From Winogradskyella sp. PG-2 (lineage in GTDB: Bacteria > Bacteroidota > Bacteroidia > Flavobacteriales > Flavobacteriaceae), in the NCBI RefSeq assembly GCF_000828715.1, contig NZ_AP014583.1, forward strand, positions 3,656,001 through 3,720,000: DNA of 64,000 nt, given 5' to 3'. Below the pieces are notes generated by a model. It was not told the DNA's origin and ran no database searches. It was given only the letters and a program-made list of their open reading frames with translations. This document shows, in pieces, positions 14,217 to 19,988 of this stretch. The translations under genes were made by a program, and so were the position numbers. The first letter of the stretch is position 1. Each line of letters begins with the position of its first letter.

Positions 14217-14731
14217 TTAGTTAGGATAGTTAGCTCCAGGAGGGTTTCCATTTTCACCTTTATTCAGTCCATATCCTCCTGGGATATCAGTTGCGCCTCC
14301 CTGAAAAAACGGTACTATACTTCCTTTTGATATATTCTTTTTACCAGTAGGTATAAAAACAACGTAGTTAATCCTGTTTCTCCTTTTGAATTTGGATAGG
14401 ACCCCAAATAAATCCTAAGACCATCCATCGTATAACCAAGTTCACCTGCTTGATTCTCTGCATAATTAATATAATTCTGTATATCCTCAATCGACCACCA
14501 AGATGATCTATTATCACCACGAGTGGTGGACTTACGAAATAATGAATCATTAATTATTTTATGTTTCAAATTATAGGCCTGATCTAAAGTCTTGGCTTCT
14601 TTTGGTGTTATAATACCTTAAGGAATAGATACTTCTTCCATAATCATTTCTTCATTTTCTTGAGAACAATAGAAATACATGACTAATGCACCAAAAATAA
14701 CACCAACAATTAGCAGTACTGAATTTTTTAT
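14217..14731 (-). pseudogene. Decayed paralogue of the GANYP-tail small protein, with N-terminal membrane anchor
   Basis: One reading path of 172 codons can be followed. It starts (ATA)KNSVLLIVGVIFGALVMYFYC, a membrane anchor or lipoprotein signal. It meets a TAA at 14618-14620, then runs GIITPKEAKTLDQAYNLKH and GDNRSSWWSIEDIQNYI to GETGLTT. Near 14360 the frame must shift by one base to continue FIPTGKKNISKGS and the tail GLNKGENGNPPGANYPN. The downstream paralogue aligns along this whole path, so the lesions are in a real former gene. Three defects (no ATG, a nonsense codon, a one-base deletion) make a functional product unlikely unless some are sequencing errors. A shorter open stretch from an internal ATG at 14569 exists but lacks the conserved C-terminus. 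Confidence 0.75.
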
Positions 14732-14801: not shown

Positions 14802-15191
14802 CTACTGTGGATAATTAGCTCCTGGTGGTCTCCCTTCAGATCCAATATTTAAGCCATTTGCACCTTGTATGTCATGACTATTATCCCCTTCAGCATCCCC
14901 GATCTTATTACTTGAAGTAGGGACTAAAAAAGAAGTAGAATAACCAGCTTGACCATTTTGTGTTGGATAAGCACCACAATATATTCTAACACCATCCATT
15001 TCGTAACCTAGATCTTTAGCCTGTGCTTCGGCTAAATCCAGAAAAGTTCTTAAATCATCCAAAGAATACCATGACGACCTATTATCTGGTCTATTAGTAA
15101 TCTTACTGCTGATAAGTTCACATCTTTCAGTAAATGCATTGTTTAGTTCTTTCGCCTGATCTGGCGAAATTAAGCCTTTAGGATTGCTCAT
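14802..15191 (-). CDS. Conserved small soluble protein with GANYP C-terminal tail
   Basis: 129 residues, no signal peptide. The core is RPDNRSSWYSLDDLRTFLDL, then MDGVRIYCGAYP, then a strand TSFLVPTS. The C-terminal 40 residues are Gly- and Asn-rich and end GRPPGANYPQ. The decayed paralogue just downstream shares all these blocks, which shows what is conserved: N-R-S-S-W, M-D-G-x-R-I-Y, F-x-x-P-T and P-P-G-A-N-Y-P. I do not recognise a named domain. It stands first in a same-strand group with its paralogue, a 7-TM protein and a histidine kinase. A role as signal input or effector of that kinase would be speculation. Confidence 0.75.
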   Translation of the reverse strand: MSNPKGLISPDQAKELNNAFTERCELISSKITNRPDNRSSWYSLDDLRTFLDLAEAQAKDLGYEMDGVRIYCGAYPTQNGQAGYSTSFLVPTSSNKIGDAEGDNSHDIQGANGLNIGSEGRPPGANYPQ

Positions 15192-15308: not shown

Positions 15309-16157
15309 CTAAACTTTTAGTCTGATTTTTAAGTTACTTCCTGTCGTTTTCTGACTTAAGATATTTATTGATTTCTCAGTTAATTGCAATACTCTAGGAT
15401 AACCACCTGTAGTTTGACAATCTCTCATTAATACAATTAATTGCCCTGAAGGAGTTAACTGTAAAGTTCCTGGTAAAACTGGAGCCGTTAAAATTTGTTC
15501 CAAGTTATTTTCAATAATCGGTTCTAATTGATAAGCCATTCTACTATTAAGTTTAGAGACCTTAAAAGTTATTTCTAAAAGTTGTTTTTGTTTATCATCT
15601 GCCAATTTATTGAATTCAGGGCCTTTATATACTTCTAATGTAGAAAGCTCAATTATTTCGTTAATACATTTAATGGTAGCATTGGCACTTTGATTATTAA
15701 CATCATAACTCTCATATTCTATGATATCACCGCCTTGAATTCTATTATCAATAGTAATCGCTTTATACATACTTCTACTTCCTAAAACTAATGGACTTTG
15801 AAAACCATCTTTAACGGCTAAATAGGCTCTAAAACCTGTCTTTAATCTTCCAAAGCTTAATATGTCATTAGCTTTTATTGAAATGCATAAATTCATTTCT
15901 ACATCAACGTTGTTAAGTTGCGGTTGAATGTTCGCGCCAGAGATCGCAATTATTGTTGGTTTCAAAAATTGCAAGCTAGGACCAGTCATTGTAATCTCTA
16001 TAACAGCTGCCTCTTTAGAGTTACCAATGATCGCATTAGCAAACTGACTAGAATATGAATCCATTACACCAGAAACCGGAACACCATAATTACGCTGTCC
16101 AAAACGGCCTTTATCTTGAATACTTGTATAAAATCCAGATTTTAAAACCTTAAGCAT
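15309..16157 (-). CDS. pxpC: 5-oxoprolinase subunit C
   Basis: 282 residues. PxpABC splits 5-oxoproline (pyroglutamate), a toxic by-product of glutamine and glutathione breakdown, into glutamate with ATP. PxpC is the carboxyltransferase-like subunit once called KipA or 'biotin-dependent carboxyltransferase'. Recognisable blocks are GFYTSIQDKGRFGQRNYGVPVSG near the start, AVIEITMTGP, and the C-terminal GQLIVLMRDCQTTGGYPRVLQ. It overlaps pxpB by 8 bases, so translation is coupled. It is the last gene of the operon. No biotin carboxylase is nearby, in keeping with the 5-oxoprolinase role. Confidence 0.93.
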   Translation of the reverse strand: MLKVLKSGFYTSIQDKGRFGQRNYGVPVSGVMDSYSSQFANAIIGNSKEAAVIEITMTGPSLQFLKPTIIAISGANIQPQLNNVDVEMNLCISIKANDILSFGRLKTGFRAYLAVKDGFQSPLVLGSRSMYKAITIDNRIQGGDIIEYESYDVNNQSANATIKCINEIIELSTLEVYKGPEFNKLADDKQKQLLEITFKVSKLNSRMAYQLEPIIENNLEQILTAPVLPGTLQLTPSGQLIVLMRDCQTTGGYPRVLQLTEKSINILSQKTTGSNLKIRLKV

Positions 16158-16881
16158 CTATTTTTATTGACTTTAATTGATATTCTGATTGCATGATATC
16201 TAATTGGATATGCTTATACCCCGTGTTTGAAATGGGTACAAACTTAACTTTATCGCCTGCTTTAATATTGCAAGGTGGATTTTGATTTGAATTAAATAAT
16301 TTTATTGGGGAATTTCCAATAATATGCCAGCCACCAGGACTATCTTGTGGATAGATCCCAGTTTGCTGTCCACCTATAGCAACTGAACCTTCCTTCACAT
16401 TAAGTTTTGGTGCAGTTTTACGGTCTAAAAATAGATTAGAATTTAATCCACCTAAGTATAAAAAGCCAGGTAAAAAACCAATAAAATAAACAGTATAAAT
16501 TGCTTCTGAATGCAATTGTATAATTTCTGAAATAGACAGTTTTTTAAGATTAGAAAAATGCTCTAAATCTACTCCGAATTCATCGTCATAACAAACAGGT
16601 ACTTCCCAAATATGAGGTTTTGATTCAGAGTAGTTAGTTTTATCTAAAAATAGGCTTTTTAACATTTCAAACTCACTAGTGGCATCATTAATATTGAAAT
16701 CATAAATAATTAATATTGAATTATATGTGTTAATTACTTCAACTTTTTGTTTAGAGTATTTTTTATGAATAGCATTTTTAAAATTTAAAATGTTTTTTAG
16801 CATTTTTTCATCAATAATCACTGGCCATTCTATTAAAATAGAGTACTCATTTAATTGCGAATATTGAAGTTTAAACTCCAT
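16150..16881 (-). CDS. pxpB: 5-oxoprolinase subunit B
   Basis: 243 residues. PxpB (formerly KipI) pairs with PxpC. The family motifs are FIGFLPGFLYLGGL and the loop VAIGGQQTGIYPQDSPGGWHIIGNSP. It has an N-terminal domain of about 80 residues (low conservation) and the cyclophilin-like C-terminal half. The stop is 6 bases before the pxpA stop side in operon order pxpA-pxpB-pxpC, and it overlaps pxpC by 8 bases. The B. subtilis homologue was first described as a kinase A inhibitor (KipI), but with pxpA and pxpC adjacent the 5-oxoprolinase function is the better call. Confidence 0.93.
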   Translation of the reverse strand: MEFKLQYSQLNEYSILIEWPVIIDEKMLKNILNFKNAIHKKYSKQKVEVINTYNSILIIYDFNINDATSEFEMLKSLFLDKTNYSESKPHIWEVPVCYDDEFGVDLEHFSNLKKLSISEIIQLHSEAIYTVYFIGFLPGFLYLGGLNSNLFLDRKTAPKLNVKEGSVAIGGQQTGIYPQDSPGGWHIIGNSPIKLFNSNQNPPCNIKAGDKVKFVPISNTGYKHIQLDIMQSEYQLKSIKIDA

Positions 16882-16887
16882 AATTTA

Positions 16888-17631
16888 TTATTGAATTTTA
16901 ATTCTATTTTTCGGTAATTCTAGGTTCAAATACTTTAAAATATCTACTGCGCTTTTTGCGTCTCCATGCACACATAAAGTTTCTATTTTTAGAGGCACTT
17001 CTACTCCACTTATAGCTTTGACTTTTTGATATCTTATTATTCTTAAAACATGATTCAAAATCACTTCATTATCATTTAGTACTGCATTGCGATTTTTTCG
17101 AGACACTAAGGATAAGTCTTCATTATAATTTCTATCAGCAAAACCTTCATAAACAACCTCTATATTTTCAGCAATTGCCAATTTGGTGATTACAGAATTA
17201 AATGGCGCATAAAGTTTAATAGGAAAAGACAAACTTTTTATAAGCTCAATCACAACTTTTGCAATTCTTTCGTCTTTACTAGCAAGGTTATAGAGTGCAC
17301 CATGTGGTTTAATATGGTGCAATTGCACAGTTTCGTTATGCAATACTCTTTGCAAGCTGCTAACTTGTTGTTTTAGACTGCTATATAAATCTTCTGCAGA
17401 GATATCGATTTCCAATCTTCCGAAATTAGCTTTATCAGGAAATGAAGGATGTGCACCAACTTTCACATTGTGTTTCTTAGCAAGTTTAACCACTTCCATA
17501 ATTGTTAATTCATCACCAGCATGACCACCACAAGCTATGTTACATGAAGACAAATAAGGCATAAGCTTAGATTCGTTACCAATACCCTCACCAACATCTG
17601 CATTAATATCTATTTGTAATGTATCAGTCAT
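16888..17631 (-). CDS. pxpA: 5-oxoprolinase subunit A (LamB/YcsF family)
   Basis: 247 residues, LamB/YcsF family. The start INADVGEGIGNESKLMPYLSSCNIACGGHAGD and the block KVGAHPSFPDKANFGR are diagnostic, as is VQLHHIKPHGALYN further on. PxpA acts in the ATP-dependent opening of the pyroglutamate ring together with PxpB and PxpC. The gene lies directly next to the Nramp-like transporter gene upstream (no intervening base) and 6 bases before pxpB. The arrangement transporter-pxpA-pxpB-pxpC is the same type of grouping as ycsF-ycsG with kipI-kipA in B. subtilis. Confidence 0.95.
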   Translation of the reverse strand: MTDTLQIDINADVGEGIGNESKLMPYLSSCNIACGGHAGDELTIMEVVKLAKKHNVKVGAHPSFPDKANFGRLEIDISAEDLYSSLKQQVSSLQRVLHNETVQLHHIKPHGALYNLASKDERIAKVVIELIKSLSFPIKLYAPFNSVITKLAIAENIEVVYEGFADRNYNEDLSLVSRKNRNAVLNDNEVILNHVLRIIRYQKVKAISGVEVPLKIETLCVHGDAKSAVDILKYLNLELPKNRIKIQ

Positions 17632-18855
17632 TTATATTAATTTAAAGACACTAAGAATGCCTTTTACTCCCAAGAATATATTGATTACTTGTATCACTAC
17701 ACCTAATATATTTTGAAGCTTTGAGTTTTTATAAGATCCTAACACTGAAGATTTATTCATTACCCAAAGTAAAAAACCAGCTATTATTGGTAATAACAAG
17801 CCATTAGCAACTTGAGCAAACTTTATAATTTCAATAGATTTAAAACCAATTGTAGAGAATACAACTCCTAAACCTAATATAAACATCCAAACCGCTCTAA
17901 ACTTTCTTGACTTTAAATTAGCAGACCACCCCAAACAACCACAAGCGACAAAAGCCGCAGCTAAAGGTGCAGTTATGGCACTTGTAATACCAGCAGCAAA
18001 TAATCCAATAGAAAGAAAATATTTAGCATTAACACCAAACAAAGGTTCTAAACCTTTAGCCAAGTCTGATGCATTAGAAATCTCTTGATTTGTAATTGAC
18101 GAAGCTGATATCATAATACACATAGACACAATTCCACCTAAAACAACAGCCATAATCGTGTCTTTTCTTGCAAAACTTAAATCACTCTTATTTTTCCATT
18201 TTGTTTTTGCAAGCGAAGCATGCAAGAATAAATTATATGGCACTACAGTAGTACCTATCAAACCAATTATTGTTAAAATACTTCCCTCTGGAAATTTTGG
18301 AACAATTATACTTTTAGCAATTTCTAATAAATTCGGTTTTGTAATAATGGCTGTTGTTAAAAATGCTAGGCTCATCAATAAAACAAGAAAAACTAATACC
18401 TTTTCCAATACTTTATAATTACCTATAAAAAGCAATACAAAAGCAAAAAAGCCAATAGTTAAGCTCATTATATTAAGTTTTAAACTTCCTAATTCCAAAA
18501 TAGGATTACCAAATAATGTTTGCATTCCTAATGCTCCACCACTTATGTTTCCCGCTTCGTATGCAGCATTACCAATAACGATAGCACTCAATATTAAAAT
18601 AATAGCGAAACCACGTATTGCAGGATTCTTAATTTCAGCTCTTATAATTTCTGACAACCCTTTTTGAGACACAATACCTAAGCGTGCAGCCATCTCTTGA
18701 AGCACAACAGTAGCAAATATTGACAACACCATTGCCCACAACAATGCATAACCAAAATTAACACCTGCAAGTGTACAAACTGTAACAGTTCCTGGCCCAA
18801 TAAAAGCTGCAGCAACTAAAGGCCCAGGGCCAATATTCTTAAAAAACTTTTTCAT
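17632..18855 (-). CDS. Nramp-like transporter of the 5-oxoprolinase operon (metal ligands absent)
   Basis: 407 residues with about eleven membrane helices in the Nramp/LeuT fold. In helix 1 the canonical metal-binding D-P-G-N is replaced by G20-P-G-T23 (FIGPGTVTVCT). In helix 6 the canonical M-P-H is V205-P-Y207 (VVPYNLFLHASLAK). So the residues that bind Mn or Fe in true MntH are missing, though the overall family pattern is clear. Directly upstream of pxpA with shared operon structure, it is more likely to carry 5-oxoproline or a related small molecule, or perhaps another cation, than Mn(II). This is inference. Its ATG shares a base with the stop of the DUF2891 gene (TAATG). Confidence 0.85.
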   Translation of the reverse strand: MKKFFKNIGPGPLVAAAFIGPGTVTVCTLAGVNFGYALLWAMVLSIFATVVLQEMAARLGIVSQKGLSEIIRAEIKNPAIRGFAIILILSAIVIGNAAYEAGNISGGALGMQTLFGNPILELGSLKLNIMSLTIGFFAFVLLFIGNYKVLEKVLVFLVLLMSLAFLTTAIITKPNLLEIAKSIIVPKFPEGSILTIIGLIGTTVVPYNLFLHASLAKTKWKNKSDLSFARKDTIMAVVLGGIVSMCIMISASSITNQEISNASDLAKGLEPLFGVNAKYFLSIGLFAAGITSAITAPLAAAFVACGCLGWSANLKSRKFRAVWMFILGLGVVFSTIGFKSIEIIKFAQVANGLLLPIIAGFLLWVMNKSSVLGSYKNSKLQNILGVVIQVINIFLGVKGILSVFKLI

Positions 18856-19988
18856 TAGTCATTTATAGAATTGAGCGCATAAATAGCAAAACTACCTAAC
18901 CAATGACCACCTTCATAGCTATCACCAACTATACTTGGTAAGGAATAATTGATATGTTGGTTAGCCACATTACCAAGATGTTTATATTCTGGTAAATCTT
19001 TAGCAATATAATTTAAACTCCAAGCTCTGGAGAAATTGACACCATCGAGATGAACTAGCTTTCCATCGGTTCTATCTGATACTTCACCTACACCTAATTG
19101 AAATGATTCATCTTTTAGTTGAGGCATAAAATCGTTAACCCAAACTTTAAAATCGTTTAACTCTAAGACACGTTTCATTAAAGCTGCTTCTTCTAAACAA
19201 GGTGATAGAAAATCAAAACCACTAGGTTCCCAACTTATTGGACAATCACTATCATTACTATAAAACTCTTTTGCTCGATTTTCAATTAAAGTCGCCAATT
19301 CTTCGTTATCTAATGTAGCTGCATAGTCATAAGCAAAGCTTAATCCAAAAGCTGTATTTGGATGTTCTCCCACCCTAATCGGGTAATTAAGCTTTGGCAA
19401 AAACTCAATATATTTGTGGACTATTAAATCTGTCAATGGTTGAAGGTTAGCCTCTAATTCTCTAGCTACTTCGCTATCCCACGTGTGTAATTCTTCAGCA
19501 AGTTTTAGTAACCATGCCCAACCATAAGTGCGTTCAAAAGATTTATTATACTGTCCTTCAAAATACAAAAGCTCGTGTTTTATATTCCCTTTAGATATAT
19601 TTTGAAGTAGTTTTTGCTCAATGATGGCTCTATTATCTAATTTAGGAAAATTCTTTAGCAAACTCACCAAACTCCAATGACCATGAACGGCCGAGTGCCA
19701 ATCAAAACAACCATAAAAAGTTGGATGTAACTCTTTAGGTGTTTTTAAGTCAGAATCTCCTCCTATAGTTTGATTAAGTTTATTCGGATATTCAGTATTC
19801 ATACAATGCAGTGGTAGTTGAGTAAGTCTATCTGCCTCCTCTAAATTGAGGATAGGTATCTTAACAATATCAACTTCAACATTAGACTCTGTTATCTCTT
19901 TCTTTACTTCATTACAACTAAGAATTAAAATTCCAAAAAATAATAGGTAATAGTTTTTCATCTGGTTAATCATTTTCGTATATCTCAA
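18855..19988 (-). CDS. DUF2891 family lipoprotein
   Basis: 377 residues as drawn. The likely true start is M6 or M10 (19973 or 19961), since MKNYYLLFFGILILSC is a standard lipoprotein signal with lipobox ILSC. The mature part matches DUF2891: FYGCFDWHSAVHGHWSLV, FERTYGWAWLLKLAEE, HPNTAFGLSFAYDYA and HWLGSFAIYAL. The His- and Trp-rich blocks sit on an all-helical (alpha/alpha barrel-like) pattern. The function of DUF2891 is unknown. The stop and the transporter start overlap (TAATG), so it belongs to the pxp operon as its first gene. Confidence 0.9.
   Translation of the reverse strand: MRYTKMINQMKNYYLLFFGILILSCNEVKKEITESNVEVDIVKIPILNLEEADRLTQLPLHCMNTEYPNKLNQTIGGDSDLKTPKELHPTFYGCFDWHSAVHGHWSLVSLLKNFPKLDNRAIIEQKLLQNISKGNIKHELLYFEGQYNKSFERTYGWAWLLKLAEELHTWDSEVARELEANLQPLTDLIVHKYIEFLPKLNYPIRVGEHPNTAFGLSFAYDYAATLDNEELATLIENRAKEFYSNDSDCPISWEPSGFDFLSPCLEEAALMKRVLELNDFKVWVNDFMPQLKDESFQLGVGEVSDRTDGKLVHLDGVNFSRAWSLNYIAKDLPEYKHLGNVANQHINYSLPSIVGDSYEGGHWLGSFAIYALNSIND

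Follow-up and report, generated by a model that had tools for sequence, protein, structure and literature searches.

What does a protein with the Nramp fold carry when it lacks the metal ligands and is encoded beside the genes for a 5-oxoprolinase? The question is raised by an operon of Winogradskyella sp. PG-2, within a stretch of 64,000 nucleotides (contig NZ_AP014583.1, positions 3,656,001 to 3,720,000; hereafter the window), in which an Nramp-fold transporter gene precedes pxpA, pxpB and pxpC. The operon structure, the fold, the absence of metal ligands and the conserved linkage to two unrelated lactamase families are directly observed. We consider it likely, from sequence and genomic context, that the operon serves both the uptake and the use of 5-oxoproline (pyroglutamate), and that its Nramp-fold protein would import 5-oxoproline and not a divalent metal.

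The operon and the missing metal site

The five genes, in gene order, and the two motifs of the transporter are:

18855 to 19988, minus strand: DUF2891 protein, likely a lipoprotein (Pfam DUF2891, 447 bits)
17632 to 18855, minus strand: Nramp-fold transporter of 407 amino acids, without metal ligands (PF01566, 305 bits)
16888 to 17631, minus strand: pxpA, 5-oxoprolinase subunit (LamB/YcsF; PF03746 (LamB_YcsF), 273 bits; NF003814 over its cut-off)
16150 to 16881, minus strand: pxpB, 5-oxoprolinase subunit (PF02682 (CT_C_D), 212 bits; TIGR00370 over its cut-off)
15309 to 16157, minus strand: pxpC, 5-oxoprolinase subunit (PF02626 (CT_A_B), 225 bits; TIGR00724 and NF045499 below their cut-offs)
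18787 to 18798, minus strand: helix-1 motif G20-P21-G22-T23 (canonical D-P-G-N), at the break of transmembrane helix 1
18232 to 18243, minus strand: helix-6 motif V205-P206-Y207-N208 (canonical M-P-H-N), adjoining the break of transmembrane helix 6

A first-pass annotation of the window had read GPGT for the DPGN of helix 1 and VPY for the MPH of helix 6, and both replacements are confirmed by phmmer alignment to the Deinococcus radiodurans Nramp (DraNramp) chain, in which G20 and T23 align to D56 and N59, and V205 and Y207 to M230 and H232. These DraNramp residue numbers are fitted by an offset. The helix-3 glutamate (E134 in DraNramp) is N103 in the window protein, and this site is Asn at all of the 80 named loci described below versus Glu in 8 of 8 references. 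Those references, DPGN/MPH Nramps of the same phylum, all carry D, N, M and H at the four sites; G, T, V and Y stand there in every window-type row that was read, one (L153) being masked at helix 1 and cut by a contig end. The protein nevertheless has the LeuT-type Nramp fold, and it scores over the cut-off of the NCBIfam model Nramp_1 and below those of MntH (162 versus 430) and nramp (103 versus 272.5).

The open reading frames lie where the first-pass annotation had placed them, all on the minus strand, and their families are confirmed by Pfam and NCBIfam. Its gene content (Nramp, pxpA, pxpB and pxpC) is retained, and we add the gene at the head of the operon, which it had left unnamed and which encodes the putative DUF2891 lipoprotein. 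PxpA and PxpB exceed their NCBIfam cut-offs (251.7 versus 226 for NF003814; 178 versus 145.6 for TIGR00370); PxpC stays under both of its models (176 versus 500 for NF045499; 197 versus 230 for TIGR00724) and its family is assigned at the Pfam level only. Coupling of the five genes is plausible because the junctions, taken from the coordinates, are in gene order an overlap of one base, a direct abutment, a spacer of 6 bases and an overlap of 8 bases. An orthologue at 62% identity or more is present in 35 of 37 genomes of the genus, its own genome counted, and the operon layout, kept in relatives, is beyond chance. For the DUF2891 gene the listed start is a TTG at 19988, and an ATG at 19961, also on the minus strand, is the probable start; a lipobox-like ILILSC was recognized by eye. 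Downstream of pxpC, two small open reading frames (14315-14569 and 14802-15191) have a common pattern, DNRSSW...LGY.MDG.RIY.G.YP, and match no Pfam family.

Linkage to 5-oxoprolinase

A census that starts from PxpA, and hence without motif bias, found PF03746 over its cut-off in 51 of 247 Bacteroidota genomes, with one main locus each. An Nramp-fold neighbour is encoded at 36 of these loci: 30 are window-type, meaning at least 47% identical to the window protein, and six are YcsG-type, the name we give to pxp-linked proteins that carry GPGFLTQT and GGYI (found in Moraxella, L. plantarum, Bacteroidota and A. baumannii). At the other 15 loci, tblastn detected no Nramp-fold protein within about 5 kb. 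Of these 36 transporters, 35 can be read (helix 1 is unreadable in G185, a fragment), and none of the 35 keeps a metal ligand: the Asp site is always Gly and the His site always Tyr, the Asn site is Thr or Phe, and the Met site is Val or Gly. PxpA is present in all 34 genomes with a window-type protein (one of them a fragment) versus 17 of 213 others (Fisher p 2e-29, a value that is too small because the genomes are related), and the two genes are adjacent in 30 of the 34, 12 to 1231 bases apart. DUF979, an alternative importer, was found in none of the 247 genomes. In two Bacteroidota pxp operons (L253 and L254), a reading frame that by eye resembles an MFS permease lies between pxpC and pxpA, in the place of the Nramp gene.

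Outside Bacteroidota, five PxpA plasmid matches were examined among 60 listed. Two have an Nramp neighbour, in Moraxella and L. plantarum, and both neighbours lack the ligands; in two alphaproteobacteria the neighbour is an ABC transporter, and the Natrialba plasmid PxpA has neither. The expectation that pxp-linked Nramps would all lack the metal ligands is thus borne out in Bacteroidota and is thin across phyla, where it concerns two of five loci.

The same transporter beside other lactamases

A scan of genome contigs gave the 80 named loci, the best 80 of at least 593 relatives of a pxp-linked query, many of them from Flavobacteriia and some from the same genomes as the whole-genome sample. 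The scan patterns included GPGT and GTTV[PG]YN, which makes the ligand letters of these loci partly circular, and only their context is used here. Seventy-two carry pxpA, five carry HyuAB or a fused OPLAH-like gene (L112 and L115 in Bacteroidota, L163 and L166 in haloarchaea, L167 in the gammaproteobacterium Paraglaciecola), and three carry neither (L117, L175 and the truncated L153). DUF2891 occurs at 39 of the 80 loci and a YcsI homologue at four, all in Bacillota. In addition, on three haloarchaeal plasmids a transporter 46-51% identical to the window protein abuts HyuA/HyuB genes. A single clade of the seven HyuAB-linked rows is rejected (approximately unbiased (AU) test, p 0.0003), so the transporter probably stayed the same while its partner enzymes were exchanged on two or more occasions. 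The denominator common to both lactamase families is 5-oxoproline, and linkage to a second, non-homologous family strengthens the case for 5-oxoproline as the putative substrate.

Could the transporter instead carry another cyclic amide or amino-acid derivative (a hydantoin, another lactam or D-5-oxoproline), with 5-oxoproline only a secondary substrate? The fused protein combines Hydantoinase_A and Hydantoinase_B domains and matches the solved N-methylhydantoinase and the 6yra pair; it stays under the caprolactamase cut-offs, and therefore its family does not fix its substrate. For the HyuAB partners of haloarchaea and the fused ones, the best scores are to the caprolactamase models, below cut-offs, and to the solved N-methylhydantoinase, and a gene of the aspartate/glutamate racemase family is found at two haloarchaeal loci (L102 and L166), all of which would suit such a carrier. 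However, PxpABC is the enzyme at 72 of the 80 named loci and in the window, it is described for 5-oxoproline (PMC13274462), and the links to YcsI and DUF2891 likewise indicate 5-oxoproline. We regard this alternative as improbable.

More distant relatives form a sister tier, listed as 20 loci at 35-41% identity to the window protein, of which 18 were fetched (all except G067 and G116). GPGT and V-x-Y-N are present in all 18 proteins. Lactamase queries detected HyuAB/OPLAH genes at seven of these loci, two of which also carry a TRAP permease of the DctM family; at G165, a DUF2891 gene adjoins the OPLAH gene and the transporter. Queries with pxp and DUF2891 matched at none of the 18 loci. In a subgroup with GPGTVL and V-T/A-Y-N (VTYN/VAYN; L062-L066 and L068), the stretches fetched hold no lactamase, and the substrate of L062, L063, L064, L065, L066 and L068 may differ. 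The ligand-less clade is wider than its pxp-linked part.

Proposed function and competing explanations

We propose that the Nramp-fold protein works by alternating access as an importer of 5-oxoproline, and that PxpABC would then open the lactam with ATP to yield glutamate. The unwound helix 1 (G20-P21-G22-T23, with Gly for Asp) could present backbone amides to the substrate carboxylate, a contact of the kind made by amino-acid carriers of the same fold, and Y207 (helix 6), N103 (helix 3) and N351 (helix 10) may line the lactam side. We infer the substrate, the direction of transport and these pocket contacts from the observations above; DUF2891 would have an accessory role. The first-pass proposal of 5-oxoproline rather than manganese gains from the lack of ligands in every readable pxp-linked Bacteroidota protein and from the second lactamase family; its other side is that it was partly anticipated in print and that manganese phenotypes are published for YcsG and MumT.

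Several observations count against import of 5-oxoproline. (i), related systems have been connected to manganese: YcsG and MumT are published as manganese importers. Overexpression of ycsG raised cell manganese, and mntH, mntA and ycsG could be knocked out together only in cells given an additional copy of ycsG; the earlier 5-oxoproline phenotype of ycsG could be polar (PMC10448178). Deletion of mumT lowered cell manganese, an effect complemented in trans, and increased manganese resistance (PMC5050338). (ii), the magnesium transporter EleNRMT shows that alteration of the site need not abolish metal transport by an Nramp fold (PMC12873925), and the window protein itself scores over the cut-off (98 versus 50) of Nramp_1, an NCBIfam model named "divalent metal transporter". 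(iii), none of the proteins that a family search of the window genome found over cut-off is a canonical DPGN/MPH Nramp, and therefore redundancy gives no reason to dismiss a metal role. (iv), the linkage has gaps: four of the 34 window-type genes lie away from pxpA (G251, G134, G168 and G111), two of the 80 named loci (L117 and L175) show no lactamase within 8 kb, and 11 of the 18 sister-tier loci show none in the stretch fetched. (v), relatives of HyuAB include caprolactamase and N-methylhydantoinase, so another lactam is possible. (vi), we found no transport assay for the window-type clade in the literature. A paper on this clade was likewise not found among open-access full texts, a search that most subscription papers lie outside.

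The first three points bear on a divalent-metal importer (of Mn or Mg) with altered ligands, which would owe its place in the operon to a metal requirement of 5-oxoprolinase or of glutamate metabolism. The YcsG/MntG and MumT phenotypes, the NRMT precedent and the Nramp_1 match all favour it. Against this, all window-type and sister-tier rows read have Gly for D, Thr for N, Val for M and Tyr for H, the equivalent of E134 is N103, the helix-1 Asp is kept in 5 of 5 NRMT-like rows, and the linkage tracks lactamases of two unrelated families. Overall, we consider a metal importer unlikely.

The transporter might also export 5-oxoproline, or have some other housekeeping role, given that 5-oxoproline arises inside cells (PMC13274462), that a few copies lie away from pxp and that uptake is deduced indirectly. 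Yet growth on 5-oxoproline supplied from outside requires PxpT, a member of the other lineage (PMC13274462), and a partner that is likely a lipoprotein hints at a system that scavenges outside the cell; export therefore appears very improbable to us.

Two further Nramp-family matches in the window genome are recorded here for completeness: L002 (C1:2275356-2276417), over cut-off, which has IGVS at helix 1 and lacks the metal ligands, and a third match below cut-off.

Comparison with known systems

A part for an Nramp relative in the use of 5-oxoproline has a precedent: PxpT is required for growth of C. glutamicum on 5-oxoproline, although its authors leave metal transport possible, and it is published as a YcsG homologue with 50% identity (PMC13274462). 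A non-metal substrate for the Nramp fold, which the first-pass annotation had put forward as a new class, is supported by context and is not new, being in print for PxpT/YcsG (PMC13274462). Also in print are ligand-less Nramp relatives as a mostly uncharacterised group: in a 2026 preprint, Nramp-related proteins without DPGN/MPH are paraphyletic to canonical Nramps in a rooted tree, MntG is placed in "G-motif 3", and groups besides MntG and the NRMT-like proteins are called uncharacterised (PMC12873925). The same tree speaks against the earlier wording that the window protein "has lost" its ligands: loss from a metal-binding ancestor is unsupported, our own trees being unrooted, and it is more likely that the ligands were gained in canonical Nramps, because the Nramp-related proteins are paraphyletic to these (PMC12873925).

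Cellier describes an orphan outgroup of Slc11 within PF01566 (PMC9606685, PMC10606218), and the window clade is likely this outgroup, judging by the published residues. The metal site is absent from both, and the residues that these papers used to imitate the outgroup (helix 3: Y and N; helix 6: T, V and Y) resemble Y99, N103, T202, V205 and Y207 of the window protein. The outgroup T, V and Y stand at helix-6 positions A228, M231 and H233 (PMC10606218), and T202, V205 and Y207 align with the DraNramp A, M and H; for the outgroup Y and N at helix-3 A131 and G135, Y99 and N103 match by letters and spacing alone. What appears to be new here is the predicted 5-oxoproline assignment for a clade that resembles this outgroup, together with a signature common to the window clade and the YcsG-type lineage.

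This signature comprises four sites (Gly for D56, Asn for E134, Tyr for H232 and Asn for a helix-10 Leu) and is found in all rows checked: the 80 window-clade loci (one masked at helix 1), 18 of the sister tier and eight YcsG-type proteins, with the caveats that the helix-1 and helix-6 letters of the 80 loci are partly fixed by the scan patterns and that alignment at 20% identity is weak. No comparison row, whether GTGS, NRMT-like, MntH or one of two others, combines all four. The GTGS group (L190, L192, L194, L196 and L200), so called for its helix-1 motif, also has the Nramp fold and no metal ligands. Despite the common signature, the two lineages are far apart. The window protein is 17-21% identical to eight YcsG-type proteins, and these form a separate clade with 100/100 support in a careful, unrooted tree that leaves out the long branches L204, L208 and L209; orthology to YcsG/PxpT is rejected for the YcsG-type proteins compared. 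A single ligand-less ancestor of the two lineages is possible: a branch supported at 78/63 has both on the same side, but AU tests do not reject trees that join the YcsG-type proteins to the GTGS group (p 0.37) or to MntH (p 0.17). We place B. subtilis YcsG in the YcsG-type lineage from its gene order with YcsI and its published homologues; its structure, 9a52, is a structural match to the window protein at 20% identity. YcsG is encoded in the B. subtilis pxp operon (PMC10448178, PMC13274462), and in Natroniella the order pxpA-ycsI-transporter-pxpB-pxpC includes a window-type transporter. Of the plasmid records matching the L. plantarum YcsG-type protein, 93 of 168 are from Klebsiella, and the match in NZ_CP012989 adjoins pxpA.

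A second published system has the DUF2891 gene in common with the window. In C. jejuni, a preliminary growth test indicated that 5-oxoproline use depends on cj0552-4 (DUF969, DUF979 and DUF2891), and the authors credit DUF969/979, transporter families other than Nramp, with the uptake (PMC12795558). The DUF2891 protein of the window belongs to the same family as CJ0554 (8ieu/8iev), the product of the third gene, and DUF2891 is possibly an accessory common to two unrelated 5-oxoproline uptake systems. It is not an obligate partner: by coordinates it adjoins a transporter or lactamase in only 8 of 22 genomes.

A. baumannii record L258:7642-15103 has, in order, a LysR-like gene (by eye), a YcsG-type Nramp (GPGF/GGYI), PxpA, YcsI (Pfam D-glutamate cyclase), a fused PxpB-PxpC and a biotin carboxylase. 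By gene order and published descriptions this fits mumR-T-L-U-H-C, of which mumTLUHC was read as a urea catabolism operon, with use of urea nitrogen dependent on mumC (PMC5050338). A broader and more tentative reading, which we hold to be possible though somewhat doubtful, is that the window clade (likely the Slc11 orphan outgroup), its OPLAH-linked sister tier and YcsG/PxpT/MumT represent two deeply separate lineages whose members carry organic acids (5-oxoproline or lactams like it) and share the four-site change as a hallmark, and that the Slc11 metal site would be a later invention on an amino-acid-lactam carrier. The manganese phenotypes of YcsG and MumT would then be indirect and the "urea" mum operon a 5-oxoprolinase operon, which runs against the published mumC dependence of urea use.

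Ligand-less Nramp relatives are diverse and usually annotated as divalent-metal transporters, so that a substrate for the window clade, if true, would correct many annotations and suggest the function of the outgroup from which metal transport may have evolved. Compared with known systems, canonical Nramp/MntH proteins (DraNramp, BfraNramp) have the DPGN, MPH and E134 that the window protein lacks, and of five NRMT-like rows all keep the helix-1 Asp and four carry Trp in place of the His, where the window protein has Gly and Tyr. PxpT, YcsG (MntG) and MumT combine the Nramp fold with a pxp operon, as in the window; YcsG-type rows share with it the changes of D to G, E134 to N and H to Y and the helix-10 N, and they differ in their GPGF and GGYI motifs, their 17-21% identity and their separate clade. 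With a substrate for the window clade, the dispute over YcsG/MntG/MumT/PxpT, manganese or 5-oxoproline, would become a site-directed question.

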